Origin: a virus
Reading direction: 5' to 3' (one strand)
IMG/VR virus record: IMGVR_UViG_3300021368_000924
Span: 1-23,171 of that record
DNA length: 23,171 nt
The position numbers were made by a program, and so were the translations under genes. Every line of letters starts with the position of its first letter. Position 1 is the first letter of the stretch. This document shows positions 6,401 through 23,171 of this stretch, piece after piece. Below the pieces are notes generated by a model, which did no database searches, was not told the DNA's origin, and worked only from the letters and a program-made list of their open reading frames with translations.

Positions 6401-7627
6401 TCTGAACTTAGGAGTTCCAGTAATATCAAAAACTCTCAGAAGATTTCCCATCTCAAAGGGAATGCTTACTGAGGAAATTTTATTAGTATCTCTTGGTTTA
6501 TCAACATCTAAAATCTTCGAAGATATTGTCTCTACATCATATCCTCTGACATATGCCTTTCCTGGGGAAAGTTTGAAGCACATCAGATCATTATTAGGTG
6601 TGTTTCCTTGATCTGTTACTTCATCACTGAAGAAAAGACCATCACTTCCTAATCTATCATTTAATGAGTTGTGGACTGATGGTTGGAACGGAATGATTGA
6701 GTAATCTCCTGACTCATCATATGTTCTTTCTGCCAAATAATCACGAATTTTATTGTATTCAGTTTTAGTCTCAAGAACTTTAATCTTTCCATCTTCAAGT
6801 CTCAATAATTCAACAAAGTCAGTATCGTTGACATCAGTCAACAGTTTTTTGGATAATGTAAGATCAATCTTTAATCTGTCAGCACCAGGTGCTGCATAGT
6901 TTGTAAATCCCTTGGCATTATCATACAAAGAAGAATCATCTTTTGCATTTACAAGAGACTCTGTAATCTTAAGACCAACTCTGTAAGAAGGAGTATTTGA
7001 ATACTCATCAAGAATTAGTGTATGCTTAGATACATTTACAAAATATCCACGAATAAAGAGAACACCGTCATTAATAAAAGCAGCGGAACCAATCGCAGTA
7101 GAATCAGATGCTACTGACGTAGCAAGAACTGTTCCTGCTGTAATGGTTGTATTACCATATACAATATTTTCACTAGCAAAGAATGACTCATTATCAGGGA
7201 ACTGATTAAATTCATAATTATTGTCAGAATCAAGATACTTTACATAAATTGTAAGATCTTCAACATTATTTCCATCAGGCAACAAATAAGATTGAATTGT
7301 TGCTGTTGTTCCAGAAGACTGACCAGTAATTTTCTTACCGATTAACTTATCGATATAAACCGAAATATCAATACCAGCGTTAGTTGGATTTAACTTAACA
7401 GCATAGAATTGACCATCATATGCAATATTACCAGGTATTACTATTGAACCTTCTTTAAAAACATGACTACCAAAATCTTCAATTTGATTTTGAAGTATTG
7501 ATTGTAAAGTGGTTAGCTCCCTAGCTTGGACTGGAAATCCGGGTTTAAATAATACTTTGTAAAAATTATTCGATGCGTCAAAATCGTCAAAATATGGATT
7601 GACGTTTAAATCGGTTTTTTGTGCCAT
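473..7627 (-). CDS. Giant baseplate/tail structural protein, DUF4815 type, 2384 residues
   Basis: The start is ATG 7627-7625, six bases after the gp8 stop; the stop TGA overlaps the next ATG. The N-terminus (about residues 8-75: NPYFDDF, FKPGFPVQARELTTLQSILQ, GSHVFKEGSIVIPG) is what I recognise as the DUF4815 family found in cyanomyovirus structural regions. More of that core appears near residues 840-1180 (YDHYTIPTEDDG, DFRPR, RYTMRDIGYIEDRVENLE). A second domain near 1550-1715 starts with DPLAQSF and includes LTAVDLFFANKD and GSLFKSQN. The last 150 residues hold NPATGLKVILAAYR and FPGYDNL, and end KAPRIRDLRTIAV. Between these lie inserted beta modules: four with an SSG-x-x-A core, a paired Gly-Tyr repeat near 1804-1868, and an IENEIIGY module near 1987-2064. 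There is no signal peptide, membrane segment or catalytic motif. T4 has gp9-gp12 here, so a peripheral baseplate or fibre-connecting role is likely but inferred. Confidence 0.86.
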   Translation of the reverse strand: MAQKTDLNVNPYFDDFDASNNFYKVLFKPGFPVQARELTTLQSILQNQIEDFGSHVFKEGSIVIPGNIAYDGQFYAVKLNPTNAGIDISVYIDKLIGKKITGQSSGTTATIQSYLLPDGNNVEDLTIYVKYLDSDNNYEFNQFPDNESFFASENIVYGNTTITAGTVLATSVASDSTAIGSAAFINDGVLFIRGYFVNVSKHTLILDEYSNTPSYRVGLKITESLVNAKDDSSLYDNAKGFTNYAAPGADRLKIDLTLSKKLLTDVNDTDFVELLRLEDGKIKVLETKTEYNKIRDYLAERTYDESGDYSIIPFQPSVHNSLNDRLGSDGLFFSDEVTDQGNTPNNDLMCFKLSPGKAYVRGYDVETISSKILDVDKPRDTNKISSVSIPFEMGNLLRVFDITGTPKFREVVNLKSRVNGLGTTIGEARVYSFNLTDGTYADDSTQFDLYLYDIQTYTEITFNQQLATSQLPAGSHIRGKSSGATAFAVNAGASGVTVMFRQTSGTFAPGEQIEINGVDDLPVSNFQAGPRTIVSTRVFNSRDIMSVTQTGIAGFPNFTATTVLETTDLPDGVTGGVISGGNLFTPAGGSAPTLKVDDVLVYQSGSGDLRWNRITAVNSGGANFSLTSTGSATPGVYNPAVANGTYASVKLGISRISNEEKGSLYAELPDQNIASVMLSGSELMVTEQVSAKTISGNQLTISVSDFTGISSSFLTAFDAERYLVSESGGGIGTVTSDKFVLNANSTEATVSNLTNGTNVVVNATLIKQGIQSKVKEYTRSTQLEVTLSKYTKSGTNANTSVNDGLTHNQFYGLRVQDEEISLNRPDVSEVVAVYESLDASTPTFDTITFTSTADVTNNAIIGENFTGTDSNAIARVVTKPSANVLGVVYLTGEKLNNNEEVTFDESGIITNIQAISAGSYKNITSNFALDKGQRDQYYDYSRLVRTKDSTIPSRRLLVVYDHYTIPTEDDGDVFTVLSYDKDRFTNDVPLIGKNKVRATDTLDFRPRVSLFESTTASPFNFPARDFGTVPKLLLASNESSRLGYDYYLGRIDKIYINKFGQFIVQKGISGIDPKPPTKLDNVMDIATVTLPPYLYNPSDASLDLVDNRRYTMRDIGYIEDRVENLEKVTSLSLLELNTATLQIQDVDGNNRFKSGFFVDDFRSNEFINQELSSVQVDPQTQELTPIIARNTLKSQLAPAEELIDTVVDFSTNYSLLDSNVQKTGKAVTLAYEEKGWIEQPLATRVENVNPFHVVLYTGNVELSPAQDSWVRTIRIPPRNVSGGTSNVSLGGGWRVFAGTVTQVSTRDVVVSSGNDAFMRSRNTEFDITNIKPLTKFYQFFDGNGSVDYVPKLLEIASDTTLEEYGASGAFEVGETVHGTDSEGNILIRFRVAQSNHKNGPFNSPELVYNINPYVKSENLQADYSASSKVLNVDTFALSEEAQGRYFGYVTKGMKLVGQSSGSVAYLKDLRLISDNYGDLKGTFFLKDPYATPAPAVKIETGTKSYKVTNSPTNAEPLPGSNLISSAETEYKAEGVFQVRQLVQTRRTINRFVDPLAQSFTVGGNVETTSDATGGNDDTNGAYLTAVDLFFANKDSNNNPVRVEIRTVELGTPTRDIIGDTVTLRPEDITISRTGEIATKVSFPYPIFLEPSREYAIVVVSEASDEYELWTARMGEVTVNTQSLPDAEAVRYTKQFALGSLFKSQNGTIWTADQYQDLKFKLYKANFTSNSGTAYFYNPTLDESNGYVQILGENPITTLPKTATLGITTAFDATTQQDLVVGRKIVGAEDFVTATISATGSCVANIGIGTSGSSYVSDTNVSTYNIIGSGSGLTLNITAAADGVKGITNVSIGNTGNGYQQGDVVGIVTSSVSSLSGTDATVNIQAVQGTDTLYLTDLKGDSFTIGAAVSFRDNSGNLVSLANTTITSYTETGSANSGNFIKVSHFDHGMYSNTNRVVLSDIESNIPPTTLSSNLSSQEVDTISVGSTVNFLTFEGVAVSAANTGYVLIENEIIGYDAVGQDILEIATNGRGVDSTLVIDHSSSTKVAKYELNGVSLRRINTTHDISNIDIEMDKYSIAIDRSQNGLNRTSDDAGLRAPELSFNDESDLGGSTSKASENIQYGALIPNYYVATPGSSTSATGQIRTVSGTSVDGTEVSFLDNGFENVELNKINLLSSTRIVASEVNENARLTNLPRKKSFTTAVTLTTEDSNLSPIIYTDAAYTEFRNSRVNNPINDYASDNRVNSLLFDPNAGVYVSNTVNLSNPATGLKVILAAYRDSTADIRVLYSLTRADSAEVEQEFELFPGYDNLAASGTGRLEVVNPANNSGRSDAIVPASLENQFLEYEFTANDLDLFTGYRIKIIMAGTSQAKAPRIRDLRTIAVR

Positions 7628-7633
7628 TTCTTT

Positions 7634-9178
7634 TTAGAATTCCAGAATAATTTTTACGTCTTCTTTTTGTCTGATGTCTCTTACAACAGTGGGACGATTG
7701 TCAATATAAATTAAATCGCCTGTTTTTTTATTTATCTCTGGACTAGCAAGTCCGTTCGTAAAAGTGACTCCCAAGTCTACAACTTTACTACCCACAGTTA
7801 CGCTGCTTCCAGTGTATGTGGTGTTTATGGATCCACTAAATGGAGTTATAGTGCTTGAAGAAGATTCAAAATCATAAATGGTTGATCCTGTGGTTACAGT
7901 ATCATAATCAGTTTGATCTTTTTCATTTCCAAAATACAATGATCTATCTTGAAAATACTTTAATACCTTTGTTTCGCTATCATAAGAAGCGACATAACCC
8001 TTGGCAATATTACCATCGGTTCTTGTCTGAGTAATCTCTCCACCAATAGTAGGTGTACCAGTGAAATCATCTGCTAACTTAACAGCAAACAGAGATGAGA
8101 AGTGACTTTGAGTGAAAACACTAGTAGAACTTAATTCTTGTGGATTTTTAATAATTCCAACTTGTGCAAACTGAGTATCTACTGGGAAATCCTTAGTTGA
8201 TGAATCAAACCTGGCATAGATAAGGACCTTATCGGTTCCAAGTTCAGTATAAACATCAAAACCATGTCCTCTTGATGGAGGAATGATTGGAATAAGTTTT
8301 GCTGGGTTGGGAATAGAACCAGATGGTTGTAGACTGCCTAAGTCAACAACACCAAACGTATATCCTTTACCGCCAGCAGTAACAGTTGTTCCTGTAATGG
8401 CACCAGCACTATCAACAGTAATAGAAACTCTACCACCACTGCCATCACCAAGAATATCTACTGTTCCTGCACTATATCCAGAACCAGCATCATCAATATA
8501 AACCTTCTTAATCTGGTTTGATTGAACTTCAGAATCACCTGCTTCTCTAACGTCAGAGATTTGAGTATCAGTTGATGTAGCCCAGTCATTAGGAACTACG
8601 ATATATTCTGTAGAGTCAAACTTAATAATATCACTTGGTGATACTGAGAACAAATATTTCCATACATAACCATCACCACTAGTTCCAGCAGCAGAAGGTG
8701 CTAGGTTAGTAAATGTTGGTTCATCTTGCGAATTATTACCTTTGGGATTAGATCCTGATGATCCATTATCAATACAAACATATACTCTAAAATCACTATT
8801 CATTACATAGTAATTAGAGTCATAAAGTCTGGTTGAGTTAGAATTAGGAGTTGGATTCTCAATGCTATAATCATGTCTATACATGTCATAGCGATTGTTT
8901 GCTACCCAAGTTACTTTTCTAATGACTCTTCTTATATTAGCACTATTAACTTTTTTTCCAAAAAGTATATTCTTCTTATAAAATCCAGAGTATTGAAGAT
9001 TATCGGTAGGACTTGGAACATTAGTATTAAAATCTGATGTTCTACCAAACCCTACAGATGGAGACGTGGGATTGCAAGACCCCAAGTAAACATAATACGA
9101 ATTACTTGCATTAGTAACCGAATCTACAAAATTACTGGCATTAGAAAGTCTAAATTGATCTGTTACGACAGCTGCCAT
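7634..9178 (-). CDS. 8: Baseplate wedge subunit gp8
   Basis: This is a T4 gp8 homologue, a structural subunit of the baseplate wedge that binds the gp7/gp10 part of the wedge. Two motifs tie it to T4 gp8. GDGYVWKYLF (residues 168-177) and the following EYIVVPNDW correspond to T4 GDGYVWEYLF...EYIVVPWP. The C-terminal KTGDLIYIDNRP (about 483-495), ending IILEF, corresponds to T4 SGEMIYMENRP...ILFTF. A third weaker match is YARFDSS...GIIKNP (about 318-344). The protein has 514 residues against 334 in T4. The extra length falls mainly in two places: about 110 residues between 200 and 315, which hold two Gly-Tyr beta repeats, and about 100 residues between 350 and 480. A late promoter lies 18 bases upstream of the ATG at 9178-9176, with no Shine-Dalgarno. 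An overlapping out-of-frame ATG lies at 9183-9181; the chosen start gives the MAAVVTDQFRLS N-terminus expected of the family. Confidence 0.94.
   Translation of the reverse strand: MAAVVTDQFRLSNASNFVDSVTNASNSYYVYLGSCNPTSPSVGFGRTSDFNTNVPSPTDNLQYSGFYKKNILFGKKVNSANIRRVIRKVTWVANNRYDMYRHDYSIENPTPNSNSTRLYDSNYYVMNSDFRVYVCIDNGSSGSNPKGNNSQDEPTFTNLAPSAAGTSGDGYVWKYLFSVSPSDIIKFDSTEYIVVPNDWATSTDTQISDVREAGDSEVQSNQIKKVYIDDAGSGYSAGTVDILGDGSGGRVSITVDSAGAITGTTVTAGGKGYTFGVVDLGSLQPSGSIPNPAKLIPIIPPSRGHGFDVYTELGTDKVLIYARFDSSTKDFPVDTQFAQVGIIKNPQELSSTSVFTQSHFSSLFAVKLADDFTGTPTIGGEITQTRTDGNIAKGYVASYDSETKVLKYFQDRSLYFGNEKDQTDYDTVTTGSTIYDFESSSSTITPFSGSINTTYTGSSVTVGSKVVDLGVTFTNGLASPEINKKTGDLIYIDNRPTVVRDIRQKEDVKIILEF
7729..7736 (-). 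promoter_or_regulatory. Possible weak late-promoter-like box GATAAATA
   Basis: The minus strand reads GATAAATA within the last codons of gp8 (the EINKKTG region), 102 bases upstream of the DUF4815 ATG. It differs from the late consensus only at the first base. It lies in coding sequence where AT-rich Lys/Asn codons could produce it by chance. Confidence 0.2.
8345..8505 (-). repeat. Pair of Gly-Tyr beta repeats inside gp8
   Basis: This stretch encodes about residues 226-278 of gp8. Two units are visible, one around DDAGSGYSAGTVDILGDGSG and one around TAGGKGYTFGVVDLG, about 45 residues apart. Both share a small-Gly-x-Gly-Tyr core followed by a beta strand. T4 gp8 is much shorter at this point. 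The same kind of unit occurs many times in the gp7-position protein and twice in the DUF4815 protein. Confidence 0.65.
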
Positions 9179-9212: not shown

Positions 9213-12200
9213 TTACAATTGTTTTGGTAATGAACCATTATCTCTCAATCCAACACCCCTTCTTTGAGCGATTGGGAATGTAGAAATTCCAACCGTTGTG
9301 CTTGGAATTGTGAAACCTGAAACTCCAATTGAAATGGGAGCACTAGATCTTGTAAATCCAGCAACTCTACCCCAAGAATACTTACCAACAGGATTATGAA
9401 TGTTAGTGGTAGTTCCAAGTCCAACTACATTTGAAGCAGAGTGGATATTGCATGTAATAATACCAACAGTTCCGCTGGTTTGTAATCCATGAATATAATA
9501 GACATTATCGAGGAATGTAGAACCAATACCGACGACTGCTGCGTCAGAATCATTAATTGAAGTAACTCCTGTTCCAATATTAGTATCAGAGATATAGATT
9601 GGATATCCAACATTCAGATGTGTAAAATCATTAGAGATAATTTCCATCTCAAGTGCGAGTGGAACTCCAATACCAGTGGTAGTTGTGATACCTGTTACAA
9701 TACCCGAGAATCCCATGTAAGTGGTTGCAGAACCAACAAACTCAACATTACCTGTTGCCTCTGTGCTACCAATACCAGCAACAACCATCATAGAGAATGA
9801 ATTAGGAGCATCATACTTAAACAGGTCTGCATTGTCTAAGAATATTTCAGTATCACCTACGTTGAAGTCTTTAATAATTTTAGAAACTGGGAAGATTTGA
9901 GTTTCAATAGAATCTCTTGTCTTAAATACATTCTCACCATTGATTACCTGGTCAACTTTTTGCTTAATAATATTAATTGGTTTGAAATCAGTATCATTGA
10001 TACCTTGATCAAAGTAACGGTTAGTCTCAATCTTATCAGAGGAATCTAGGTTGAATACAGTTCTCTTCTCTTGGGACTCAGTAGTTCTGATTGCGTTATT
10101 CTTCATAACTTGAACTTCATCACCCTTCTCAATAATCTGATCAACAGTTGTAATAAGAACGGTATCAGTTCCTCTGGTTCCACGATAGAAGAAGATATCA
10201 ATATTTGCTTCCTCTAATGGTGGTTCTGCGAGTGCAAAGTTTGTACCACCTTCAAATGTATATGCTACATTTGGTTCTTGAATAACACCATCAATAATAA
10301 TCAAAAGACAAGCGGCAAGATCAATATCACTATCTTCTTCAGTTTCAAAACTCAGAAGTTCGTTATTATAGAAGAGTGGGAATCTCTTACGAGTTCCATC
10401 TTGGAAGTTCTTAATAGAATCAATATAATCAAGTTCACCAAACTGCCATGAACCAAAGTTATCGGTGAAGATTTCAAGAACTTCAAGTTCATATTCCGAA
10501 AGAGGAGCAGCCAGTCCACGAGCAGTAACCAATCCAACTGGTTTAAATCTATCACCCTTCTGGAAAGAATATCCAGGTCTTGAAATATTGAATCCACTGA
10601 TTTCATGATAGGTGGATCCGATTCCAGTAGTAGATCCTGCACTTACATTAATATCAAGGAGAAGTCCGATTCCAGTATCCGTGGTTGCACCAATACTCAA
10701 TCTGGAAATACCCATTACACTCAGATCTTCATAATTTGGTTCAGAAACAAATATTTCTGGGTTGACGTACTCAGTTCCAGCAGCACCGACTGAAAGTGCA
10801 AGTGTACCACCAGCACCAACAACATGAGTTACGGTAGCACCTGATCCACCGCCACCACCAGTTCCAACACCAACACTAATCGTGTTTTGAGTGAATGTTT
10901 GGATACCCAATACTGCATTATGTGCAGGGTCACCAGCAACTACACCTCTTCTTGCTTGAGTCTTAGAAACTGCTCTTGGATATGAGTGCTCAGTAGCATG
11001 ATTATCCTTAGAGCAAGTAAATACTAAACTATCAGTTCCAATAGCAACTGTATTGGAATCAGTCAGTCCATGATTTACGATGGTTAAATTAAGAATACCA
11101 GTCAGAGAGTTGTAATCTGCATCCGTAGCAGTATATGTGTTATGAAGATTATCCGTGATGGAGTTTACGCCAGCACTTACAAATCTGTGATCATAGATCA
11201 AGTCAGTTACTGCAACTGATACATGACCATCTCTATATCCAGAACCTTCGGTTAAATCCCACCACTTATAAATGGTACCCATACCAACATAAGCATGAGG
11301 AATCGTGCAGACTCCAACATTAGCAGTGAATGTTCTGGAAGAAGTGATTCCAGTGATTGGGAATCTTTGACCAAAAGGACTGCTACCATCTGGGAAGATA
11401 GTAGTCGTAACTCCAGTATGCTCAGCAGTGCAAGCAAACTCAAGACCTTCCATGAAGACTGAACTTGTATCAACAGTCAGTCTGTGTTGATCACTTGTTG
11501 TAATCTCAAGAATACCAGTAGTATTGTTATAAGTTGCTGTACTGATGGAATATCCATCACTAACTCTCTTAACTTGATTAGTTGTACCAAATCCTACAAC
11601 AACATCACTAATGCTACCACCAGCGCCGATTACAGGTTTGGACATTGCACCAACCAAAGGAGCATATCCAGATCCACCAGTTGAACCAAGAGAAACAATC
11701 ATTCCTCCTCTTGGTAACTCACCCATATTCACATCAAACTCAGAAGTGAAGATGTTATTGGATTGGTCTCTAATACCACTGAAACTTACACTACTAATAC
11801 CAGCAGACAAATCTTCCACGATACTGAAGTTATTTGCTGGATTATTCTGAGTAGTTGGTGTCTGGAAAATACCGTTTATAAACAGAACTCCATTACCACC
11901 AGTTGTTCCAATACCTGTTGTATTTCCACCATCTACACTCAATGTAAATGTTCTACCAATACCAGTAAATTCATCAGAAATATCATCATAAACTTGGTTG
12001 GTTGCATAATCCTGTCTGAGGTATACTCTGCCATTGAAAGAGGCAACTGGGAAATCTAAATTAGAACTCGTTGAATCAAACTGAGGATTTCCTCTTGGTG
12101 CTTCCGTAAAGTGGATATCTTGACCTACAAGGTTGTATCCACCAGAGAAGACTGTTGCTACACCGGCTGTATCAGCATGTGTGGATTTTGAAGTACCAAC

Positions 12201-15200
12201 CGCTCCCCTTTCTACCTGAACGAGATTGAATGCACCAGTATTGGTGATAGGACCAACAGCAGTTGTACCAAGACCAACATTTTCAATAAGCATAAACTCA
12301 TTATCAACCTTAATAAGATCTTTTGGTTTGATTGTTGATATTCCACTCAATGAGAAGATAGTATCAGCGACTCCAATAGATCCACCATTGTCAGCAAGAG
12401 AATGATTTATTTCAGTCATCGCAACTGGATATTGTGCGATATTGTTGATACTAACCAGTGACTTAGAATTTCTCTTCGCCATCTCGAACATGTGAGTATT
12501 ACCTTCACCAATTGAGGTAATTGTTACAGCAGCACCAGCAAGAGATGTAGAAATTTGGAAACTATTTTCATCGGTTCCAACAATAGCAAAGACTCTTTCT
12601 GGTAATATGTCTATACTACCAGGAGTTGCGGGCATATACTGCATGGCAGTTGAACCAACACCTACGAATGATGCTGCCGGAGTATAAATCAGTTCTTCAC
12701 CGTTTTGGAAGAAGTGATCATCAATTTGGAATGTTGTTGGACCTGTCGAAAGATCCATGATATCTGTGTCTTCTGGGTTAAAGACCTTAGCAAAGATGGG
12801 AACTGAATTATGATTAACAGTAAACTGAGTTCTGTTGATTCTGTCACCATTGATTGCATTATAGAAGTTATATCCAACCGATTCTGATATAGCACCAATG
12901 TTAAGAACATTTGGAGTATTCAGACTATCAATCTTGGTGTAGAATATTTCACTAAAAGCAGATACACTTACATTAGATGCAGTGTCTGGTGTGAACGTCA
13001 GAATCATGTCCGTTCCATCAATATCACCACCAAAGGTTCCAATACCAGTTGTGCTTCCTACTGATAAGAATGGTGACTGCTGAATGTAAACGTTTTGATG
13101 CGAGTCCTTGATCATCAGGACTTGGTGCAGAGCACTAGTGTCACCAACACTTACTCTAACGTACGACTTCATAGAGTCAAAAAGTCCATTACTTACTGAT
13201 ACTACTGTGGTTGCAGTAGAAACATTATCAACGAAGTTGGACTGATAGATTACAGATCTTTCTGATCCATCAGTTTGGAAGCTATTCTTATATCTGTGAG
13301 TTCCAATGCCGATTGAAGTTGTTCCAAATCCAACAATTCTTGCTCTGATATCAATATCATCTTCTGTATCACTTGTATAAGTGAATGTAGCAATTCCACT
13401 GATAATATTTGCACTGAAACTACCTATTTCATCAATAGACAAGAAGTTAGTGGTTGAATCGGTATCATTATAATAATCAGAAATGAATGTATCAGTGCCA
13501 TCATGAGTCAGATAAACTCCGGCAAAATTCATTTCATTAGTGCTCTTGTTAATTACATGAACATCAGCAAATAATCCATCAAACTCATCTGTTGCTGCTG
13601 TGTAAAGAGCAGTGGTAAATCCAGTCTGAGTGGTTATACCATTTGAACTAACAAGATTAATAAATCCAATCGCTTGTGTGTTAACACCAACATTACTGCT
13701 ATTAAATTTGCTTGTTCTTGATTTTAGATCATAGTCAATATTATCTGGATCATCTGGAGTAAATCTCAAGAAAGAATCTCCAATAGAATCAGTTACGATC
13801 TCAAATGTACCAAACTCATCACCATTAGCATGAAGAATACTTGTACCTGTATTAACAACACTTCCTTTATCTAATAAGAAGTTATTACCACCAGAAGAGA
13901 GAATAACCAGGTCAGAGAGTTGAACTTCATTCATGTCCTTGTCACTGACTCTGAACAGAATACTTGTGAAAGTATCTGCAGGATCAAGTTTGAAGATATT
14001 CAGAAACTTACTTGGTTCCCCATCAAGGTTAGAGAACTGAGAATTAATATTATCAATCGTCAGAACTCTATTTGTTCTACAATCAATGTAATCAGTTAAT
14101 TTCTTATTCTTAAAGGTGATAAATTTCGATGTATTGTTTACAACATCAATGTCTCTAACCAGGTCAAAATCGTAAACAGTATCAACTCTTGTTTCAGTTA
14201 ACAAGTCTTTAAAAATTCCTGTCTGGTCATCAGTATCTGCAATGCCCGCAGATGTAGATGAAGTAATGCCAGTATCAGCAAAGTCTCTCATTCCACTTGT
14301 GTGTAAAAGACCTTTGACTACCTCAGTTGTCTTTTGATATGTAAGTGGGCTCTTGATTGAGTATGAAAGATTTTGATAGTAATCATTATCTGGAACTACT
14401 TGATCATCAAAGTCGAGCATACCAACATTAGTTTCCCAACCAATATCTTTCTTGATGCTATAATCAACAGAGAAGACACCTTCACCAACATCAAGGGAAC
14501 TAATAGTAGCAATGTTTCCAGAATCAACGCCAGTTAAGACATCTTCAACTTTAAGTTCGTCTGTTCCATTGATCTTGATTGAGAGTTCGTCATACGATGC
14601 AATAGTCAGATTTGATGTTGCGCCATTGATAAGAAGCTTCTCGCCAATCAAGAATGCAGATCTCTTTTGGATTGCTTCAAGAACTGGGTAATTATTTTTA
14701 TTGATTACAATACCAGTTGCATCCTGCTCAGTTTTTGCTAAACCAGCATTAGTGATGAAACTTGTACCATCAAGGGTAACTCTATCCAAGACACCACTTG
14801 TCTTATCATAGTTAGTAACCGTGTAGAACCTATATCCAACGTCTGGTGAGTTAAATCCAGTTCCAGTTGAGGTGTACTTCTGTATACCCTCAACGAATAC
14901 CTCATCACCGAGTGCAAATGGATCAACGGGGAATCCTACCGTTGGTGTTGTAATATGACAAGTAATAATTCCACTGTTCTCATTGGAGAATACTTTCTGA
15001 ACACTAATACCATTTGTATTATCTTCAGTAAAGAGTAAAGCAGTGGTTTCTGGTAAACCTTTTGGTTCTTGCTCAATAGTTACTCTTGTAATTGAGTTAT
15101 CTGTAATTTCAGCAAAAAGAACACCACTGTTAATCTTTTGACGTGTTGTTGGATGAACAACAGATACAGATGGTGCGTTGATAAAGAACTTGCCACCATC

Positions 15201-18200
15201 AGTAATACTAACAAAACCAACAGTATTTGAATCTTTAATGGTGATCAGAGGAGAGATATCCGCAGTTGGCTGAAGAGTTTTATCTGAGGAATATTCAAAT
15301 CCTTCATTGATAACTCTTACAGTCTCTGCATTACCAATAGTAGAAGATGTTGGGACGATATAGGCATCTTTACCATCAGAACCAGTTACATCTGTAAATA
15401 CAGGATACTGTTCATAGTTACTACCACCAGAGATAATATTAATCTTCTTGATTGGACCAGATGCAGTTACAGATGAAGTCTCATATTCTAAATTAGCACA
15501 CTCTGATTCAATATAAGATAATTTCTCTGGAACTTCACTCAAGAAGATATTGAATGTTGTACCAGCAAGTCCAACAGGAGAAACATGATACTCACCAGAA
15601 TATGCACTATTTTCAAATAAGATTTCTGAATATTGTTTGACTTCTTTATCAGCAGTGCTTATAAATCCAGATTTTTCAATGTTATAATAAAGTCTTCTGG
15701 GAAGATCAGTATTATGATTAACAGACAATGTTGCTCCTGTTGTAACACCAACAGTGCCAAGACCAACAATTGTAAATGAACCAGTTGTGGAGATGGATAC
15801 TACTTCATTATTGAATGCATTATCATAATAAATCTTGAACTGATAATCTTCAAGTGAAGAATCTTCAAGATTAAATACAAGATTATTATCTTTAACAGAT
15901 ACAACTTGTGGATTAATAGGTGAAATAGTTTGAGTAGATCCTCCGGTGCTCAGGATGTCCACAACTACTGGTGGATTTTTCTGAACATTTGTCAGAGTAG
16001 TGGAAAGTTGAATATTGTCATCGTCAACTCTATAAACATAATAAGTGGTAGTATGTAAACCTAATGCAACAGTATTGGCATCATAATCAACCTTATCCAA
16101 GGTCTTAAGACCATGAGATGGAATATTAATTTGATTAGTTACTGTATTAACACCTGCCGCTGCAAATGTAATAGGATTAATCTGAATGTTACCTGTCAGA
16201 GTATTTCTTTGAACTCTTACGGCAGTTGAAGTTCCAATGCCAACAGAAAGTGAAGGTGCGACATCAAGATTGATAACATCATTCGCTTTCAGTTCGTGAG
16301 AGGTTGATACAGAAACTTGAGATCTGACTTTTTGAACCTTACCAGTGATCTCAACAAAGTTTGTATCAAAACGATATTCGTCACTATTAGCACCTACCGT
16401 TCTAAAATATACCTCTGATGAAGTAAGTGTAGTTTTAATACCAATACTATTGATATTCTTATCTACAACAAATACATTTGATGGTAAGTTAAATGGAGTT
16501 CCTGTTGGAGACGTTGAAATAGATACTGCCGTACCATCAGCAGTGAAAGTAACGTTCTGATTATTTTCAAAAGGATGATTCTCTAATGTGATAGTCCTAG
16601 CTGGAATATCTCTTGTGATCAATGAATCACCTAAGGTGAAAGTAACCGATGTAGAAATGCCAGTTATTGTTCCAACACCAACAGACTCTGTTGGATTAAA
16701 GTATACTCTTTGATTGACTTTCGAATCAAAGAATTCCAGATTAGATTTAATTGTGAATGAATCTGGTTTGAACGATACCTCAGAAGTCGCAGTATGTGAA
16801 ATACCAGTCAAACTTCTTTCAACTTTAATAATATTTTTGTTATTAAAGATTTCTAATACAGTAAGAGTTTCTGTTGAAATTCCAATCTGACTATTGATTG
16901 CAATATTCTCAGGAATTCTTGATACATAAATTTCGGTCGAAACACCAGATGTACCAGCAGGGAGTTCTTTTATCAGAGATGCTTTGAAAGAAGTAACGCC
17001 AACTTTAAAAGTGTTATTCAGTCTAGACAGATTTGTTGAGAAACCGGAGATTACTACATCTTCACCATTCAAGATAGTATGACTTGGTTTGATAGTTACT
17101 CTTACATTTCTGTCATTATCTAAAGTAAATACTGCGTTTGGAAACTCTTCAATAGTTGTAGTTATATCTGTAATATTCTTACCACCAACTCTCGATACTC
17201 TTGAAATGAGTCCACCACCAGTTGATGTTGCCTCAAAGTTCAATACATCATTAACCATGTAGTTAGAACCAGAATTGACAATATCAAACCCAGTGATAGA
17301 ACCCTTAGTTTGAGATTCTACAATTGACTTCTGATTAATAACCTCATTAGTTTCAATGATAAAGTCGTTATCAGCATTAGAATCAGATACCTTATATGGG
17401 AAGGTATTTCTAAGTAGATTTGAGTTATTGAAATCAAACTCTTGATTTAATGTCTTATTCTCATGTAATGTATTTGATCTATACTTGTTACCAATGAAGA
17501 ATGGGAACTGTGGATCATTACTTGAATCAATAGTTGCATAGTAAGCATAGACTCCATTTGGAAACTCGGGAGTTTTTGCAAATCTACCATTATACTCATC
17601 AAGATCTCCATTACTGGTATAGCAGTAATCTTCAACAAAGAAACCGTTACTAAATCCAGATGGTCTATCAACTACATCAGATACTTTGAGTTCATATCCA
17701 GACTCTACTCTCTTAGGTGATGAGTTAGTATCATCTGCGTCAGAGTATCCATAAGGACCATAGATTGGATTACCATCATACGCCCATCCAATAATCTTGG
17801 ATGTTATAGTTGAATCTTCATTGAATGCATCTCTAACAGTATCAAAATAACCCAATACAGAGTATTGCAGTTTTTCATCTGTCTCATTTAAGAGTTCATT
17901 ACCAAACCTAGAAGTATTGGTAACAGTCAGTCCTCTAACATCAGCATCAAACAATGCATTGATACCAGTAGACTTAACTCTTAATGTTGAGGTGCTTGAA
18001 TAACCAATACCAGGATTAACGATCTTAATATCAGTTAATTTACCACCAGAGATGATAGGTCTAATATCAGCACCAGTTCCTGCACCAGTTGGGTCTACAA
18101 GCTCAATATCTGGTAATGATGTATACTCATTTCCACCAGAATCAATATTAACAATTTCTAATCTACCATTTACAATGATAGGTTCTAACTGAGCATTCTT

Positions 18201-21200
18201 ACCTGATGTAATAGAGATAAGTGGTTTACGGTGATGATTCAGAATGGTTGAACCATATCCTGTTCCTGCGTCATAGAGGTAAGAATCAATAATGCTTCCT
18301 CTTACAATAGGAACAGCATTAACTGTCTGGTAAGATTGTGTTGTTGTTCCAAAACCAACAGAGGTGTATTGAACATCAACGGAAATATCAGGGAACTTGA
18401 ACTGGTGCAATCCAGAACCTACGCCCTCAATTCTAATATTCTCTCTTTGCTCATACTTAGAAAGATTAGTTCCGCCGATACCAATATCAGCAAGTCTGAA
18501 AGTATCATCATCAACTTTCAGAATCATGTATGAAGCAGTCTTTACACCTACGGTAATATCTGGAGATTCGAATGATATACCATCAGTATTTTCATAAACA
18601 ATCCTATCACCATCTTCAAATCCATGATTAACAAAGTTAATAGTATGATTAGTGGTATTGATACCTACTGGTTTTACAAAAAGATTTCTGTTTGTATATC
18701 CAGAACCACCATCTACAACAACAATGTTTGCAATAGTCTTTTTGGATTTCGCTGGAGTGAATTTTTGAGTTCCATTACCAGATGATGTAAGATCAACAGT
18801 GTTGATTCCAGCAAGGAAGTCTGACTTTGACTCAAACAACTGGATCGTTTTGTTATTATCAATCTTAGCGAAGTATGATGCTCTATCAACTAAAGTAGTA
18901 GTTCCAATACCAATAGGAGTATTGCCTTCATCATGATAGATAATCTCTTCACCACTTGTAAGATTGTGGTCTTCTTTAAAAATCAACTGATCGGTTGTGG
19001 AATTAATACCGCCACCAGCAGATGAATATCTAGCATCAAAGAAGATATTTCTGAATCTATCAGTTAACTGTGCTTCTAATACTGCACCAGTTCCATTACC
19101 ACCAGTAATACCAATAGAAACAATACTTTGAATATCAAAGTCTTGAGGATCTACATATACCTTTTCAAAAGATCCACTGATAACTGGTCTAATCTTTGCT
19201 GTAGTTCCAGTTCCAGTAGTAGCCGTAATAACAGGTAAGTTGATTACATCATACCCTTTACCACCATTCAGGAGATTTATACTTTCTAAAGGACCAAAGT
19301 AAATCTTGTCATCAGATTTATAGTTGGATATTTCGACACCATTAATCAACATTCCAGTGGATCCTGGAATAGTTAACTCACCTACACCATTTTTAATGTT
19401 TGGTTCCAGAGTAAACTTCTTGAGCAGTTTTTGTGGACCAAGAACATTTGATCTTTGAGAGAACAATGTAAATCTATGACCATCTGCCTGTGGTCTAAAC
19501 TTCAGATAGTTGGGACCACCAACAAATGATCTGGAAGAATAAAGATTGATTTGTTTCTTATCAGAAGATACAATAGAAACAAAATATCCACCAGTCTCTA
19601 ATCCAACCAGAGGAGCTACATCTGGTTTGTAGAAGATCTTATCACCTTCAATGAAAGGAACTGGATTTGCGAACTTAATTGTTCTATAAGTACCATCTGC
19701 AAATCCATCAGTGATAATACCAACTGTTCCTGCACTAATAGAGGTAGTATTTACTTCCTTACTTATTTCATAAGCATATTCAATGGAAGTAGCAGTTGTG
19801 TCATTGTTAGATGGAAGTGAGTTTGAGGCAACATATGCATACTTACCTCTCTCATCATATACATTCAATACATCAGATAATGTTGTATTATTACCATACA
19901 ACATTGTTACATTAGAACTAGAAGCAGTATTTAACTTTCTTCTTAAATCATAATCCTGTCCTGTTGCAGCAGTAAATGAAAGGTTATCTAATGTTACTCT
20001 ATTTTCGGTGTTCAGAATATTTGCAATGTATGCAATATTTGTAGGAGAAGAATCAACAACGTTTGAATCTCTTTGAAGGATTTCTACTCTATCACCCTTC
20101 TTCAAACTTGATCTGTCAATTCCACTCGCAAGTGTATAGTTGCTTATGTCACTAATATTATATCTGGAACTAGTATTGTAAATCCAAGAGTTGAAGAATA
20201 CTTGCTTGTATGTCTTATCAGTCTCAGGATTCTTAACATTAGAACCAAGATTTTTTACTGAAATAATATCGTTATTAACAACATTCAGGTTGTCACTAAT
20301 CTGTTCAAACTTTGATAAAACACCTGTCAGACGCAATTCAACTTTTTTCGTTAAATCGCCGTCTTCATATCCAAAATAAATCTCATCGGAGCGGACGTTA
20401 TCTGCCGCCTCAATCGTTTGTCCAATACCTGTACAACCTAAAAACTGGTTGATACTCTTATCGGAGTATGTGATGGAATTGATTCCAGACAAAACATACC
20501 CAGTTTGAGCAAATCCAATCGTAGAATCAACAGTTACAACAGACGATCCAACAGCAACAGTTTGTGTTGCTTTGGTTGAGGGTGTAATTTGGAAAGTACC
20601 TTCGATTGTTGAAAGGTCATCATATCCAATGAATAATGATACTTTGAAATATTGCTTGTTGTTTCTTGTAAATGGTTCTACTTCAGAGATAGAAGCATTA
20701 GTGCCTGCATCAGTCTTTTTGGTAATTGTCTGGCCTACAAGATTATTTGGATTACCAGAAATTGCTTCTGCAATAGTAACGAATCTTCTGATGTACTGAG
20801 CAGCAGAAGGTTTGATCAAATAATCTTCTAGATTAATTATACTTGGATCTACACCATACAGAACCTTACAAAGAATCTTAAAGGAATCATCAGTACCTTT
20901 GGACTCATACAGAGACCTTGCCTCTTTGATAAAGTTACCAGCATTGACTGATGGATGGAAATCAACATCTTCCAATCCAGGAGTAAATGTTGCTTTCAGT
21001 TTCTTATAAAATTCTTTTAAGAATAATGTGCTAAGGTTCTGAACAGAAGAACTAGCAACGTGATCTGCTGCTACTGTATCGGAGAAAACTAACTCTTCTT
21101 GATTAGTGTCTTGGTGATAGCTAGTAATTCCAGAGAAACCACGCACACATCCAGTGAAGGATGTAGAAGTCTTCCCAGTATACGTAATAACCTCGTCATT

Positions 21201-21509
21201 GATCTTTAAAAGACCATAGGTGTCTGGGTATCCCTTAGTCGAACTAACGTTGATTGTAGAGTCACCAGCGGTCACTATACCGACCGTTGTGGTGCTATCA
21301 ACAACAACCTCTGGTATCAGGTTATCAACTTTTAGATATTGGTCTAAATTTTCAGAAAGATCTGAAGTACCGCCCTGATACTCCTGCGAAATATAATACT
21401 GTTTAAAGAAATCAACTGCCTTTGGATTTTCGTCCAATATAAAGCTAGGTAATTGATTAGCAATTATCTCTTGAACCTTAACCCTAGGTTCGAACCCAGT
21501 TTGTATCAT
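9213..21509 (-). CDS. 7: Giant gp7-position baseplate wedge protein, 4098 residues
   Basis: The start ATG 21509-21507 is one base after the gp6 stop (TAATATG). The protein lies between gp6 and gp8, the position of T4 gp7, the wedge protein that nucleates assembly. It is about four times the length of T4 gp7 (1032 residues), and the name rests mainly on position. Residues about 1-250 (FKQYYIS, SLYESKGTDDSFKILC, NLEDYLIKPS) look like the conserved head. The rest is a long chain of beta modules. A module seen about six times has an NHGFEDGD core followed by YYVxxVDDDxxQL. Gly-Tyr repeats number about ten, and about 20 G-[IVLF]-G-[TS] tetrapeptides occur. A YHYH-like domain lies near 1225-1350. 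A tandem pair of YNxxTGIL modules lies near 3317-3515. Two NGVxQxP-type loops lie near 3210 and 3742. No signal peptide, membrane segment or obvious catalytic triad is seen. The frame is intact with no sign of frameshift. Confidence 0.8.
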   Translation of the reverse strand: MIQTGFEPRVKVQEIIANQLPSFILDENPKAVDFFKQYYISQEYQGGTSDLSENLDQYLKVDNLIPEVVVDSTTTVGIVTAGDSTINVSSTKGYPDTYGLLKINDEVITYTGKTSTSFTGCVRGFSGITSYHQDTNQEELVFSDTVAADHVASSSVQNLSTLFLKEFYKKLKATFTPGLEDVDFHPSVNAGNFIKEARSLYESKGTDDSFKILCKVLYGVDPSIINLEDYLIKPSAAQYIRRFVTIAEAISGNPNNLVGQTITKKTDAGTNASISEVEPFTRNNKQYFKVSLFIGYDDLSTIEGTFQITPSTKATQTVAVGSSVVTVDSTIGFAQTGYVLSGINSITYSDKSINQFLGCTGIGQTIEAADNVRSDEIYFGYEDGDLTKKVELRLTGVLSKFEQISDNLNVVNNDIISVKNLGSNVKNPETDKTYKQVFFNSWIYNTSSRYNISDISNYTLASGIDRSSLKKGDRVEILQRDSNVVDSSPTNIAYIANILNTENRVTLDNLSFTAATGQDYDLRRKLNTASSSNVTMLYGNNTTLSDVLNVYDERGKYAYVASNSLPSNNDTTATSIEYAYEISKEVNTTSISAGTVGIITDGFADGTYRTIKFANPVPFIEGDKIFYKPDVAPLVGLETGGYFVSIVSSDKKQINLYSSRSFVGGPNYLKFRPQADGHRFTLFSQRSNVLGPQKLLKKFTLEPNIKNGVGELTIPGSTGMLINGVEISNYKSDDKIYFGPLESINLLNGGKGYDVINLPVITATTGTGTTAKIRPVISGSFEKVYVDPQDFDIQSIVSIGITGGNGTGAVLEAQLTDRFRNIFFDARYSSAGGGINSTTDQLIFKEDHNLTSGEEIIYHDEGNTPIGIGTTTLVDRASYFAKIDNNKTIQLFESKSDFLAGINTVDLTSSGNGTQKFTPAKSKKTIANIVVVDGGSGYTNRNLFVKPVGINTTNHTINFVNHGFEDGDRIVYENTDGISFESPDITVGVKTASYMILKVDDDTFRLADIGIGGTNLSKYEQRENIRIEGVGSGLHQFKFPDISVDVQYTSVGFGTTTQSYQTVNAVPIVRGSIIDSYLYDAGTGYGSTILNHHRKPLISITSGKNAQLEPIIVNGRLEIVNIDSGGNEYTSLPDIELVDPTGAGTGADIRPIISGGKLTDIKIVNPGIGYSSTSTLRVKSTGINALFDADVRGLTVTNTSRFGNELLNETDEKLQYSVLGYFDTVRDAFNEDSTITSKIIGWAYDGNPIYGPYGYSDADDTNSSPKRVESGYELKVSDVVDRPSGFSNGFFVEDYCYTSNGDLDEYNGRFAKTPEFPNGVYAYYATIDSSNDPQFPFFIGNKYRSNTLHENKTLNQEFDFNNSNLLRNTFPYKVSDSNADNDFIIETNEVINQKSIVESQTKGSITGFDIVNSGSNYMVNDVLNFEATSTGGGLISRVSRVGGKNITDITTTIEEFPNAVFTLDNDRNVRVTIKPSHTILNGEDVVISGFSTNLSRLNNTFKVGVTSFKASLIKELPAGTSGVSTEIYVSRIPENIAINSQIGISTETLTVLEIFNNKNIIKVERSLTGISHTATSEVSFKPDSFTIKSNLEFFDSKVNQRVYFNPTESVGVGTITGISTSVTFTLGDSLITRDIPARTITLENHPFENNQNVTFTADGTAVSISTSPTGTPFNLPSNVFVVDKNINSIGIKTTLTSSEVYFRTVGANSDEYRFDTNFVEITGKVQKVRSQVSVSTSHELKANDVINLDVAPSLSVGIGTSTAVRVQRNTLTGNIQINPITFAAAGVNTVTNQINIPSHGLKTLDKVDYDANTVALGLHTTTYYVYRVDDDNIQLSTTLTNVQKNPPVVVDILSTGGSTQTISPINPQVVSVKDNNLVFNLEDSSLEDYQFKIYYDNAFNNEVVSISTTGSFTIVGLGTVGVTTGATLSVNHNTDLPRRLYYNIEKSGFISTADKEVKQYSEILFENSAYSGEYHVSPVGLAGTTFNIFLSEVPEKLSYIESECANLEYETSSVTASGPIKKINIISGGSNYEQYPVFTDVTGSDGKDAYIVPTSSTIGNAETVRVINEGFEYSSDKTLQPTADISPLITIKDSNTVGFVSITDGGKFFINAPSVSVVHPTTRQKINSGVLFAEITDNSITRVTIEQEPKGLPETTALLFTEDNTNGISVQKVFSNENSGIITCHITTPTVGFPVDPFALGDEVFVEGIQKYTSTGTGFNSPDVGYRFYTVTNYDKTSGVLDRVTLDGTSFITNAGLAKTEQDATGIVINKNNYPVLEAIQKRSAFLIGEKLLINGATSNLTIASYDELSIKINGTDELKVEDVLTGVDSGNIATISSLDVGEGVFSVDYSIKKDIGWETNVGMLDFDDQVVPDNDYYQNLSYSIKSPLTYQKTTEVVKGLLHTSGMRDFADTGITSSTSAGIADTDDQTGIFKDLLTETRVDTVYDFDLVRDIDVVNNTSKFITFKNKKLTDYIDCRTNRVLTIDNINSQFSNLDGEPSKFLNIFKLDPADTFTSILFRVSDKDMNEVQLSDLVILSSGGNNFLLDKGSVVNTGTSILHANGDEFGTFEIVTDSIGDSFLRFTPDDPDNIDYDLKSRTSKFNSSNVGVNTQAIGFINLVSSNGITTQTGFTTALYTAATDEFDGLFADVHVINKSTNEMNFAGVYLTHDGTDTFISDYYNDTDSTTNFLSIDEIGSFSANIISGIATFTYTSDTEDDIDIRARIVGFGTTSIGIGTHRYKNSFQTDGSERSVIYQSNFVDNVSTATTVVSVSNGLFDSMKSYVRVSVGDTSALHQVLMIKDSHQNVYIQQSPFLSVGSTTGIGTFGGDIDGTDMILTFTPDTASNVSVSAFSEIFYTKIDSLNTPNVLNIGAISESVGYNFYNAINGDRINRTQFTVNHNSVPIFAKVFNPEDTDIMDLSTGPTTFQIDDHFFQNGEELIYTPAASFVGVGSTAMQYMPATPGSIDILPERVFAIVGTDENSFQISTSLAGAAVTITSIGEGNTHMFEMAKRNSKSLVSINNIAQYPVAMTEINHSLADNGGSIGVADTIFSLSGISTIKPKDLIKVDNEFMLIENVGLGTTAVGPITNTGAFNLVQVERGAVGTSKSTHADTAGVATVFSGGYNLVGQDIHFTEAPRGNPQFDSTSSNLDFPVASFNGRVYLRQDYATNQVYDDISDEFTGIGRTFTLSVDGGNTTGIGTTGGNGVLFINGIFQTPTTQNNPANNFSIVEDLSAGISSVSFSGIRDQSNNIFTSEFDVNMGELPRGGMIVSLGSTGGSGYAPLVGAMSKPVIGAGGSISDVVVGFGTTNQVKRVSDGYSISTATYNNTTGILEITTSDQHRLTVDTSSVFMEGLEFACTAEHTGVTTTIFPDGSSPFGQRFPITGITSSRTFTANVGVCTIPHAYVGMGTIYKWWDLTEGSGYRDGHVSVAVTDLIYDHRFVSAGVNSITDNLHNTYTATDADYNSLTGILNLTIVNHGLTDSNTVAIGTDSLVFTCSKDNHATEHSYPRAVSKTQARRGVVAGDPAHNAVLGIQTFTQNTISVGVGTGGGGGSGATVTHVVGAGGTLALSVGAAGTEYVNPEIFVSEPNYEDLSVMGISRLSIGATTDTGIGLLLDINVSAGSTTGIGSTYHEISGFNISRPGYSFQKGDRFKPVGLVTARGLAAPLSEYELEVLEIFTDNFGSWQFGELDYIDSIKNFQDGTRKRFPLFYNNELLSFETEEDSDIDLAACLLIIIDGVIQEPNVAYTFEGGTNFALAEPPLEEANIDIFFYRGTRGTDTVLITTVDQIIEKGDEVQVMKNNAIRTTESQEKRTVFNLDSSDKIETNRYFDQGINDTDFKPINIIKQKVDQVINGENVFKTRDSIETQIFPVSKIIKDFNVGDTEIFLDNADLFKYDAPNSFSMMVVAGIGSTEATGNVEFVGSATTYMGFSGIVTGITTTTGIGVPLALEMEIISNDFTHLNVGYPIYISDTNIGTGVTSINDSDAAVVGIGSTFLDNVYYIHGLQTSGTVGIITCNIHSASNVVGLGTTTNIHNPVGKYSWGRVAGFTRSSAPISIGVSGFTIPSTTVGISTFPIAQRRGVGLRDNGSLPKQL
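10970..11561 (-). repeat. Tandem pair of YNxxTGIL beta modules in the gp7-position protein
   Basis: The first copy starts around Tyr3327 (ATYNNTTGILEITTSDQHRL) and the second around Tyr3466 (ADYNSLTGILNLTIVNHGL), 139 residues apart. Both continue through a Val-rich strand to a Cys-containing strand (LEFACTAEHTG and LVFTCSKDNHA) and then a Pro turn. Identity is limited to the core pattern, so the duplication is old or the copies were acquired separately. I recall such modules as common in marine phage structural proteins. Confidence 0.7.
17476..17789 (-). other. YHYH-like domain within the gp7-position protein
   Basis: This encodes residues 1241-1345. It opens with GWAYDGNPIYGPYGY (1241-1255), continues to GDLDEYNGRFAKTPEFPNG, then VYAYYATID with Tyr1321-Ala-Tyr-Tyr1324, and closes with FPFFIGNKY. 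This order matches what I know of the YHYH domain: an AYDGxPIYGPYG signature, an LDExNGR segment, a TPExPxG turn, the YHYH core, then FPxxxG. Here the core reads YAYY, so both histidines are replaced. The domain is embedded in frame within the beta-repeat chain. Confidence 0.72.
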
Positions 21510-21510
21510 A

Positions 21511-23171
21511 TTACTGTCTTATAAGAATCCCGTTTGAATAACTTGATGTGTAATAATCTCTAGTAAATACCGTTCCAGAAATTTCATCACCAGATGCAAT
21601 AACATCTCTTACCATATTTATGGTGCTATCCGAAACACTAAAACTTAAATATAGATCTTTCAAACCAACAATATCATTGGATTCTGGGAATGCTTGAATC
21701 TCAATAATATCATTCATCTTTTCAGTAGATGTGATTGTGACCGTTCCCAGATTGATTTCACCATGCATGTAATCTACGGTACCGGCAGACTTGTTAATAA
21801 CTCTGATAGTTCCATCAGAAGTTTCTTTAACAATGGAAAGAGTTCCCGTTTTGCCATCATCATTAGGAATATCAGTAAAATAAACAGTATCTACTTCACC
21901 AGAAATCTTAAATCCCGTGGACTTGATATTACGTCCATCTGGATTGATGTGGAACTGGTTACCAAAGCACAACTCATACTGTGCAGATTGATTAATTGCC
22001 GCCTTCAAATCTCTTCTAATAATGACCTTTGTAATATTAGAAGTAATTGAGGTATCTGTATTATCAACAACTTGCTGAACCTTACTATATTTGAATCTAC
22101 CACCAAACTTATTAAGGTCAACTGATTCAGAATATTCCGACAAAGAGTTGATAATCGAACTTCTTAGGGAAGAAGCAGAAGTCGTCTTGTTTGTGTTATA
22201 GTAAACAGCACTATCAATCTCAACATATAGTATCTTAAGATCAATAATCTTTTGATTGATACCAGATACAGTGTACTGCTTCAACTTAGAAAGTATCTGA
22301 GACTTATTGAAGTCTGATACAAAACTACCATTCTTTGGTTTGATACTAAGAGTAACAGTACCAAACTCTGGTGGATCTAACTCTTCACCACCAACAACAG
22401 AAACAGATTCAGTATCGGGATAGATTGACTTGATAATAGCTTCGTAATCCCGTGATGTAACCGCTCTGTACTGCGAGGAATAGATCCTAGGAGCGAAGTA
22501 TTTGACGGAATCGATAGATTCTACGTCAGACCCATTTTGCGCTGCCTGAACGGTCGTTACAGTGACCGATCCTGGATTGGGAATATTACCACCAGAATCC
22601 TTGACGCTACCAGAATATGAGAATGAAGATGCTCCATTACCATCTGTACCATCAGTTACGATATAATGTACAGTGATGACTGATTCGTTCTCTAACTTTT
22701 CACCAAGTAATCCATCACCAAAGAGGATTTCATACTTCTCATCCTGAACCTCCTGGATCAAGAAAATCTTGGATGTACTCTCAAGATTTAAAATATTATC
22801 AACTAATTGATACTCAACACCTAAACCTGTGTCTCCAGGACCTTTTACATAAACAGAGATTGTTGATGTATCAACATATGAGTTATCAAGTAAAAATCTC
22901 TGATTCAGTGAAGTATCGACTGTAAATTCTTTTGTTAAAAAGATTCCTTGATAAACATCTACGTTCTCAAATGTTGCTACATTATTAACAACAGATGTTG
23001 TGATGTTTTCAGGAACCGCAAATGTATATGATGTATTATCTACGCTACCAGTGCACACCAGACCTGCCTGTAAGGTCGCTGTAGGCGATGTAGTGTTAAC
23101 TGCTGTACTAAATGATACCTGTGCCTTTGCTGCCGTTCTAGAGCGTGGTACGTATCCAATGTTACGTGCCA
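21511..23171 (-). CDS. 6: Baseplate wedge subunit gp6 (5' end missing)
   Basis: The frame is open to the right edge of the window: 37 codons plus two bases precede the GTG at 23058, and they read like family sequence (ARNIGYVPRSRTAAKAQVSF). That GTG is therefore internal and not the start. About 552 residues are visible against 660 for T4 gp6. gp6 forms the dimeric wedge core that connects adjacent wedges into the ring around the hub. Seen motifs of the baseplate-J/gp6 superfamily are YEILFGDGLLGEKL (near visible residue 147) followed by a VHY strand and a GTDGNG turn. Then comes FAPRIYSSQYRAVTSRDYEA (near 224), the classic J-like motif. An Asn/Ser-rich region and a C-terminal beta domain follow. 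It ends with TAA at 21513-21511, one base before the gp7-position ATG, which implies co-transcription and likely coupled translation. Confidence 0.92.
   Translation of the reverse strand, partial: ARNIGYVPRSRTAAKAQVSFSTAVNTTSPTATLQAGLVCTGSVDNTSYTFAVPENITTSVVNNVATFENVDVYQGIFLTKEFTVDTSLNQRFLLDNSYVDTSTISVYVKGPGDTGLGVEYQLVDNILNLESTSKIFLIQEVQDEKYEILFGDGLLGEKLENESVITVHYIVTDGTDGNGASSFSYSGSVKDSGGNIPNPGSVTVTTVQAAQNGSDVESIDSVKYFAPRIYSSQYRAVTSRDYEAIIKSIYPDTESVSVVGGEELDPPEFGTVTLSIKPKNGSFVSDFNKSQILSKLKQYTVSGINQKIIDLKILYVEIDSAVYYNTNKTTSASSLRSSIINSLSEYSESVDLNKFGGRFKYSKVQQVVDNTDTSITSNITKVIIRRDLKAAINQSAQYELCFGNQFHINPDGRNIKSTGFKISGEVDTVYFTDIPNDDGKTGTLSIVKETSDGTIRVINKSAGTVDYMHGEINLGTVTITSTEKMNDIIEIQAFPESNDIVGLKDLYLSFSVSDSTINMVRDVIASGDEISGTVFTRDYYTSSYSNGILIRQ
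21615..21622 (-). promoter_or_regulatory. Possible weak late-promoter-like box CATAAATA
   Basis: The minus strand reads CATAAATA within the 3' part of gp6, 106 bases upstream of the gp7-position ATG. It has one mismatch at the first base of the late consensus. It lies in coding sequence, so chance is a fair explanation. Confidence 0.2.

Follow-up and report, generated by a model that had tools for sequence, protein, structure and literature searches.

Genomic context of the giant wedge protein

The window, by which we mean the whole stretch of DNA analyzed, is a 23,171-base virus record whose minus strand codes for gp6, a 4098-aa protein, gp8, and a 2384-aa protein (Table 1). PHROG and Pfam profiles identify gp6 and gp8, and the giant protein between them matches a baseplate wedge subunit (PHROG 2885), which places it in the gp7 position. 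The PHROG 2885 match and the gp6-gp7-gp8 order that mark T4-like cyanophage gp7 are thus both found in the window, the gene order gp25-gp6-gp7-gp8 of P-SSM2 matches, and the 5195-aa gp7 of P-SSM2 can be aligned with the window protein (41% identity across 3541 aligned columns). The S-ShM2 gene at the place of the 2384-aa protein carries the annotation VrlC. The glycine-rich stretch directly before the YHYH module has similar counterparts before the module in syn9 and in two further phage genomes (G003 and G010).

Table 1. Coordinates of the genes, the YHYH-derived module, and its motif positions in the window.
Feature	Position	Strand	Basis
gp6 baseplate wedge subunit, cut by window end	21511-23169	-	PHROG 219, E=4e-163
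gp7-position giant baseplate wedge protein, 4098 aa (P0001)	9213-21509	-	PHROG 2885 baseplate wedge subunit, E=0
Glycine-rich repeat-like stretch, aa 1080-1200, GGxxYTSxPxxxL... pattern, directly before the YHYH module	17910-18272	-	Read from sequence
Whole recognizable YHYH-derived module including eroded motif site, aa 1214-1345	17475-17870	-	Alignment of 218 domains; AlphaFold2 model of aa 1195-1365
True Y-H-x-H position, here Y1216-S-V-L1219	17853-17864	-	Alignment, with bridging forms elsewhere among viral copies
Pfam PF14240 match, aa 1233-1329, profile 90-184 of 193	17523-17813 (second reading 17523-17816)	-	E=1.1e-25
T1236, column of third conserved His (HSP)	17802-17804	-	218-domain alignment
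D1245, the conserved DGxPIYG aspartate, present in every sequence compared	17775-17777	-	218-domain alignment
LDEYNGR, aa 1303-1309; Y1306 in place of LDEH His	17583-17603	-	218-domain alignment
A1311, column of Cys after NGRF in most cellular members	17577-17579	-	218-domain alignment
YAYY, aa 1321-1324, conserved YAYF strand of the family	17538-17549	-	218-domain alignment; profile-profile alignment
gp8 baseplate wedge subunit	7634-9178	-	PF09215, E=2e-13; PHROG 438, E=1e-157
2384-aa protein directly after gp8	473-7627	-	DUF4815 (PF16075), E=2e-59; PHROG 358

The wedge protein retains the C-terminal half of a YHYH domain

When the giant protein was searched with hmmscan, a single domain exceeded its cut-off, namely YHYH (PF14240), which scored 91.2 bits where the cut-off is 25. 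This match is far beyond chance and bears out the original prediction that the wedge protein at the gp7 position contains an embedded YHYH-family domain. The ordered landmarks lie where that prediction had put them (YDGNPIYGPYGY at aa 1244-1255, LDEYNGR, TPEFPNG at aa 1313-1319, YAYY, and FPFFIG at aa 1335-1340). All fall inside its proposed range of aa 1241-1345, which starts slightly late, leaving out the eroded site Y1216-L1219 and T1236. Profile-profile alignment (hhalign) of 21 window-like with 52 canonical copies extended over 118 columns (Prob 100, E=7.4e-42), and the C-terminal core of DGxPIYGP, LDxxNGR, TPExPxGxYAYF, and PYxxG is retained in the window module. This alignment begins at canonical column 127, and neither it nor the Pfam profile recognized the N-terminal half (NGV ... 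GGH ...) in the window module; the N-terminal half is therefore missing or unrecognizable in the window lineage. Some other gp7 copies, that of G010 among them, are still matched from profile position 21, and thus the truncation is not universal. Both kinds of alignment agree with the earlier claim of a kept fold as far as the C-terminal half is concerned.

The YHYH family is without a solved structure. AlphaFold2 gave a confident model of a cellular member (pLDDT 93.7, pTM 0.90) and a moderate one of the window module, aa 1195-1365 (pLDDT 74.6, pTM 0.67; block means of ∼78-89 over aa 1225-1334). In Foldseek, which also uses sequence, the window and canonical models matched several of the same predicted viral proteins, with TMq of 0.50-0.56 for the window. 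A search of the PDB by fold with the canonical model yielded no match below E=0.001, and no credible relative turned up when the PDB was searched by sequence, whether the query was the domain, the whole protein, or the canonical alignment.

Register of the motif and state of the presumed metal site

Motif columns were compared in an alignment of 218 distinct domains, including 77 cellular domains and 120 from long viral ORFs, and window residues were numbered from the translation of the 4098-aa ORF. A scan of bacterial genomes gave 79 YHYH loci, mainly from Bacteroidota and Planctomycetota. The cellular domains have the GGH histidine, both Y-H-x-H histidines, and the DG aspartate in 77/77 cases each, the HSP histidine in 76/77, the cysteine after NGRF in 68/77, and the LDEH histidine in 60/77. 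The x of Y-H-x-H is most often histidine, YHHH being commoner than YHYH in these proteins. Three of four cellular relatives tested carry a secretion-sorting domain, in keeping with the expectation that they are exported.

Cellular members match the YHYH profile from position 1 or 2 to 184, and their Y-H-x-H precedes the DGxPIYG aspartate (26 residues upstream in L249); judging from the matched ranges, the motif would sit at roughly profile positions 76-79, outside the stretch matched in the window. The same C-terminal strand reads Y[A/C/V/S]Y[F/Y] in the 77 cellular domains, none with histidine at the second position, alongside an intact Y-H-x-H; the YAYY of the window is therefore the ordinary YAYF strand. 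The original prediction had taken YAYY for the YHYH core with both histidines replaced. The similar-looking YxYx spacing invites that register, to which we give virtually no chance, as histidine-bearing proteins have YHYH and, further on, YAYF, and hhalign pairs VYAYYATID of the window with canonical TYAYFITVD. YAYY is ruled out as a decayed core; the claimed loss of histidines stands, at Y1216-S-V-L1219, T1236, and Y1306. For the eroded Y-H-x-H part, the register rests on bridging forms that other viral copies display (YTHAYAPKQL, YSHLYSPRSL, GGEYAHLSNPQRL, YASLYAPREL, and YSVCGYFQEL), which lead to YSVLGYFDTV in the window.

By the features that define the histidine-bearing class, the window lacks the Y-H-x-H pair and the HSP histidine and has the DGxPIYG aspartate. 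The presumed metal ligands are accordingly gone as predicted, both Y-H-x-H histidines, the HSP histidine, and the LDEH histidine being replaced, and D1245 is retained. The conserved acidic residues of the module might nonetheless coordinate a metal, for example calcium.

Histidine loss is general among gp7 copies

The histidine pair was present in 0/120 distinct copies from giant viral proteins as compared to 77/77 cellular domains; the viral copies were classed by locus set (long viral ORFs), and gene order was inspected for roughly a dozen of the records. A change peculiar to the window is rejected by this survey, which gives no support to the idea that its phage is unusual. The HSP histidine is kept in 61 of the 120 copies and the LDEH histidine in 57; 51 copies retain both of these histidines plus the cysteine, and 53 have none of the three. 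Such residue counts are not of independent events, since a tree of 94 domains, in which many forks are unresolved, requires four changes of the HSP histidine among gp7 copies. Several smaller viral YHYH proteins (L095, L096, L104, L105, and L109) have partly lost motifs (YHYR, YRYY, YAYR, YTYN, and YRYR), and loss of the pair thus recurs outside gp7. Giant viruses encode YHYH as well (BFVD A0A5B8IDC5 and A0A5J6VJS1, from Mimiviridae sp. ChoanoV1 and a Megaviridae environmental sample).

In a tblastn search over public phage records, the domain was found in 463, and all of these except one bear a cyanophage or marine name. Records named Synechococcus numbered 373 for gp6 and 372 for the domain, and those named Cyanophage 61 for each; these near-equal counts by name place the domain in essentially every cyanomyophage record with gp6. 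The many enterobacterial T4-like records carrying gp6 were absent from the matches to the domain. The N-terminal half of the histidine-bearing form, searched with one query, was found in only 72 phage records.

The module is under purifying selection

Relative to two close relatives (L003 and L005), dN/dS of the domain is 0.17 and 0.15. Across 54 related loci, the segment LDEYNGRFAKTPEFPNGVYAYYA / GDLDEYNGRFAKTPEFPNGVYAYYA is the best conserved of 84 gp7 bins of 25 aa (0.81 versus a mean of 0.49), and the domain falls within the top 1.3% of 108-aa windows of gp7, both ranks being inflated because the loci were fetched through this domain. When the window gp7 is compared to the divergent S-WAM2 and S-H34 proteins, the conserved segments are the N terminus and the stretch holding the YHYH module. 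A neutral, decaying relic of a captured domain might be suspected from the absence of the histidines and N-terminal half in the window and from the partial loss in other viral copies such as YHYR and YRYR. However, the low dN/dS and a C-terminal core that is invariant across distant phages make a relic very improbable, and we reject it; purifying selection marks the gp7 YHYH as a maintained, histidine-less module.

Intact YHYH copies in neighboring wedge genes

In S-SSM4, the order is a gp25-like gene, a gp6-like gene, a 6932-aa protein, CYXG_00060, a gp9-like connector, a 1154-aa wedge protein, and a wedge subunit in the gp8 position; the layout in S-ShM2 is the same, with gp8 and VrlC named there. 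The 6932-aa protein holds a histidine-less copy with GGEYAHFTNP, CYXG_00060 an intact YHYH, and the 1154-aa wedge protein a third copy. G003 (L261 and L262) has two copies in one 7185-aa ORF just after gp6, a histidine-less one near the first fifth, split by an insertion, and an intact one near the C terminus. In S-SSM4, S-ShM2, and G003 the first copy after gp6 is the histidine-less one. The histidine-bearing CYXG_00060 reads CGGHPEQDGEYHYHDG, then HSKIVGFCFDGYPIYGPFGY, LDEHNGRFCKTPEYPDGTYAYFLTL, and VYPYIFGP, and GxH, YHYH, HS, DGxPxYGP, LDEHNGRFC, and GTYAYF are all invariant in six viral copies of this type.

Within the baseplate wedge cluster, CYXG_00060 (L083:5223-6995, P0005) consists of the intact YHYH followed by an alpha/beta-hydrolase-like (esterase-like) half, the latter weakly similar to short-chain PHA depolymerases (NF050058; 31.5 bits, below the cut-off of 150). 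In phage S-BM3 (OQ319121.1 138225-138461), a histidine-bearing YHYH N-terminal half lies under a feature labeled "peptidase S8," a label reflecting either a fusion or a misannotation.

Discussion

In our reading, the giant wedge protein that T4-like cyanophages encode at the gp7 position incorporates a YHYH-family domain, of which the feature is the C-terminal half. The family's histidine pair has been lost, the window lineage losing in addition the third histidine, the LDEH histidine, and the cysteine, with the DGxPIYGP / LDxxNGR / TPEFPxGxYAY(F/Y) / FPYFIG core held under purifying selection. Most likely, the module, which sits at a fixed place after the glycine-rich repeat stretch, acts as a non-enzymatic structural or docking part of the wedge. 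Because the presumed metal-binding histidines are lost and yet the domain is under strong selection in nearly all such viruses, a structural role is more probable than an enzymatic one, and we assign a probability of about 0.6 to a function in wedge structure or docking that involves no catalysis. The gp7 module presumably neither binds metal nor catalyzes a reaction.

An exposed receptor- or glycan-binding module on the baseplate, with an enzyme-like fold kept for binding the cyanobacterial surface, is a less likely reading. The exported appearance of the cellular relatives, with their secretion-sorting domains, and the many conserved tyrosines and acidic residues kept in the module are compatible with it, and a pelagimyophage paper places YHYH among carbohydrate-binding and host-recognition domains (PMC7029224). 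However, parts that contact receptors usually diverge fast, and few parts of gp7 are as well conserved as this module, which is common to phages of different Synechococcus and Prochlorococcus hosts. The receptor-contact role put forward in the original prediction finds no specific support; a module that keeps a fixed position within a conserved segment fits a structural role better, albeit with a conservation sample that is biased. Quite improbable, in our estimation, is a still-active metal-dependent hydrolase that uses other ligands, such as D1245 or further conserved Asp, Glu, or Tyr residues. For phage YHYH domains, a study by Iyer and colleagues predicts a Zn-dependent, tail-associated hydrolase from three histidines and an aspartate (PMC7824862), and D1245 and the LD-NGR residues are retained in the window. 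All three conserved histidine positions and the frequent fourth are lost there, however, and the N-terminal half, which carries two of the motifs, is not recognizable; judged from these residues, the published Zn-hydrolase prediction cannot hold for the window copy unless other ligands substitute.

Beyond the structural or docking function that we favor, a more encompassing account can be offered tentatively, as something we consider possible and would not yet call probable. The gp7 module would be a pseudo-enzyme-like structural core of essentially all cyanomyophage baseplates, a captured domain of bacterial exported proteins with an unsolved fold; the gp7 lineage would have lost the histidine site at its base or close to it, and further copies in neighboring wedge genes would have kept it, some joined to an esterase-like domain.

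YHYH domains in phage tails have been published already; what appears to be new is the corrected register and the finding that histidine loss is general in gp7. No statement that gp7 copies lack the histidines was found in the open-access literature, outside which most subscription papers lie, and in the portion of the literature accessible to us no experimental work on phage YHYH domains was found. With the motif assignment corrected, cyanophage tails contain two YHYH classes, a near-universal histidine-less one in gp7 and a rarer histidine-bearing one nearby, and the published metal-dependent hydrolase idea cannot apply, as stated, to the commonest phage YHYH copy. For a family that lacks a solved structure, the gp7 module and its intact neighbor are useful as a matched pair for testing the role of the histidines.

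Several known systems can be set beside the window. The gp7 copies of other cyanophages (P-SSM2, syn9, S-CAM7, ACG-2014f, and S-SKS1) have the module in the same gene position and at the same place in the protein, and those read, P-SSM2, syn9, ACG-2014f, and S-SKS1 among them, are likewise without the histidine pair. In contrast to the window, about half of the sampled viral copies keep the HSP and LDEH histidines and the cysteine, and syn9-like gp7 copies keep the bridging form YAHL where the window has YSVL. CYXG_00060 of S-SSM4 and SShM2_094 of S-ShM2 have a domain homologous to the window module in the same wedge gene cluster, but in a separate short gene and, unlike the window, with the GGH, YHYH, and HSP histidines and the N-terminal half. 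Exported bacterial YHYH proteins (PF14240; L249 and L175) are homologous to the window over ∼118 columns comprising DGxPIYGP, LDxxNGR, TPE(F/Y)PxGxYAY(F/Y), and (F/Y)PYxxG, whereas the window lacks their N-terminal half, GGH, Y-H-x-H pair, HSP and LDEH histidines, and cysteine; the bacterial form is a signal-peptide protein with a secretion tail and the window module is embedded in a giant virion protein. The YHYH domains described in jumbo phages resemble the window in being fused to tail or baseplate proteins and differ in their conserved histidine triad plus aspartate, the basis of the predicted Zn hydrolase, of which the window keeps the aspartate only (PMC7824862).
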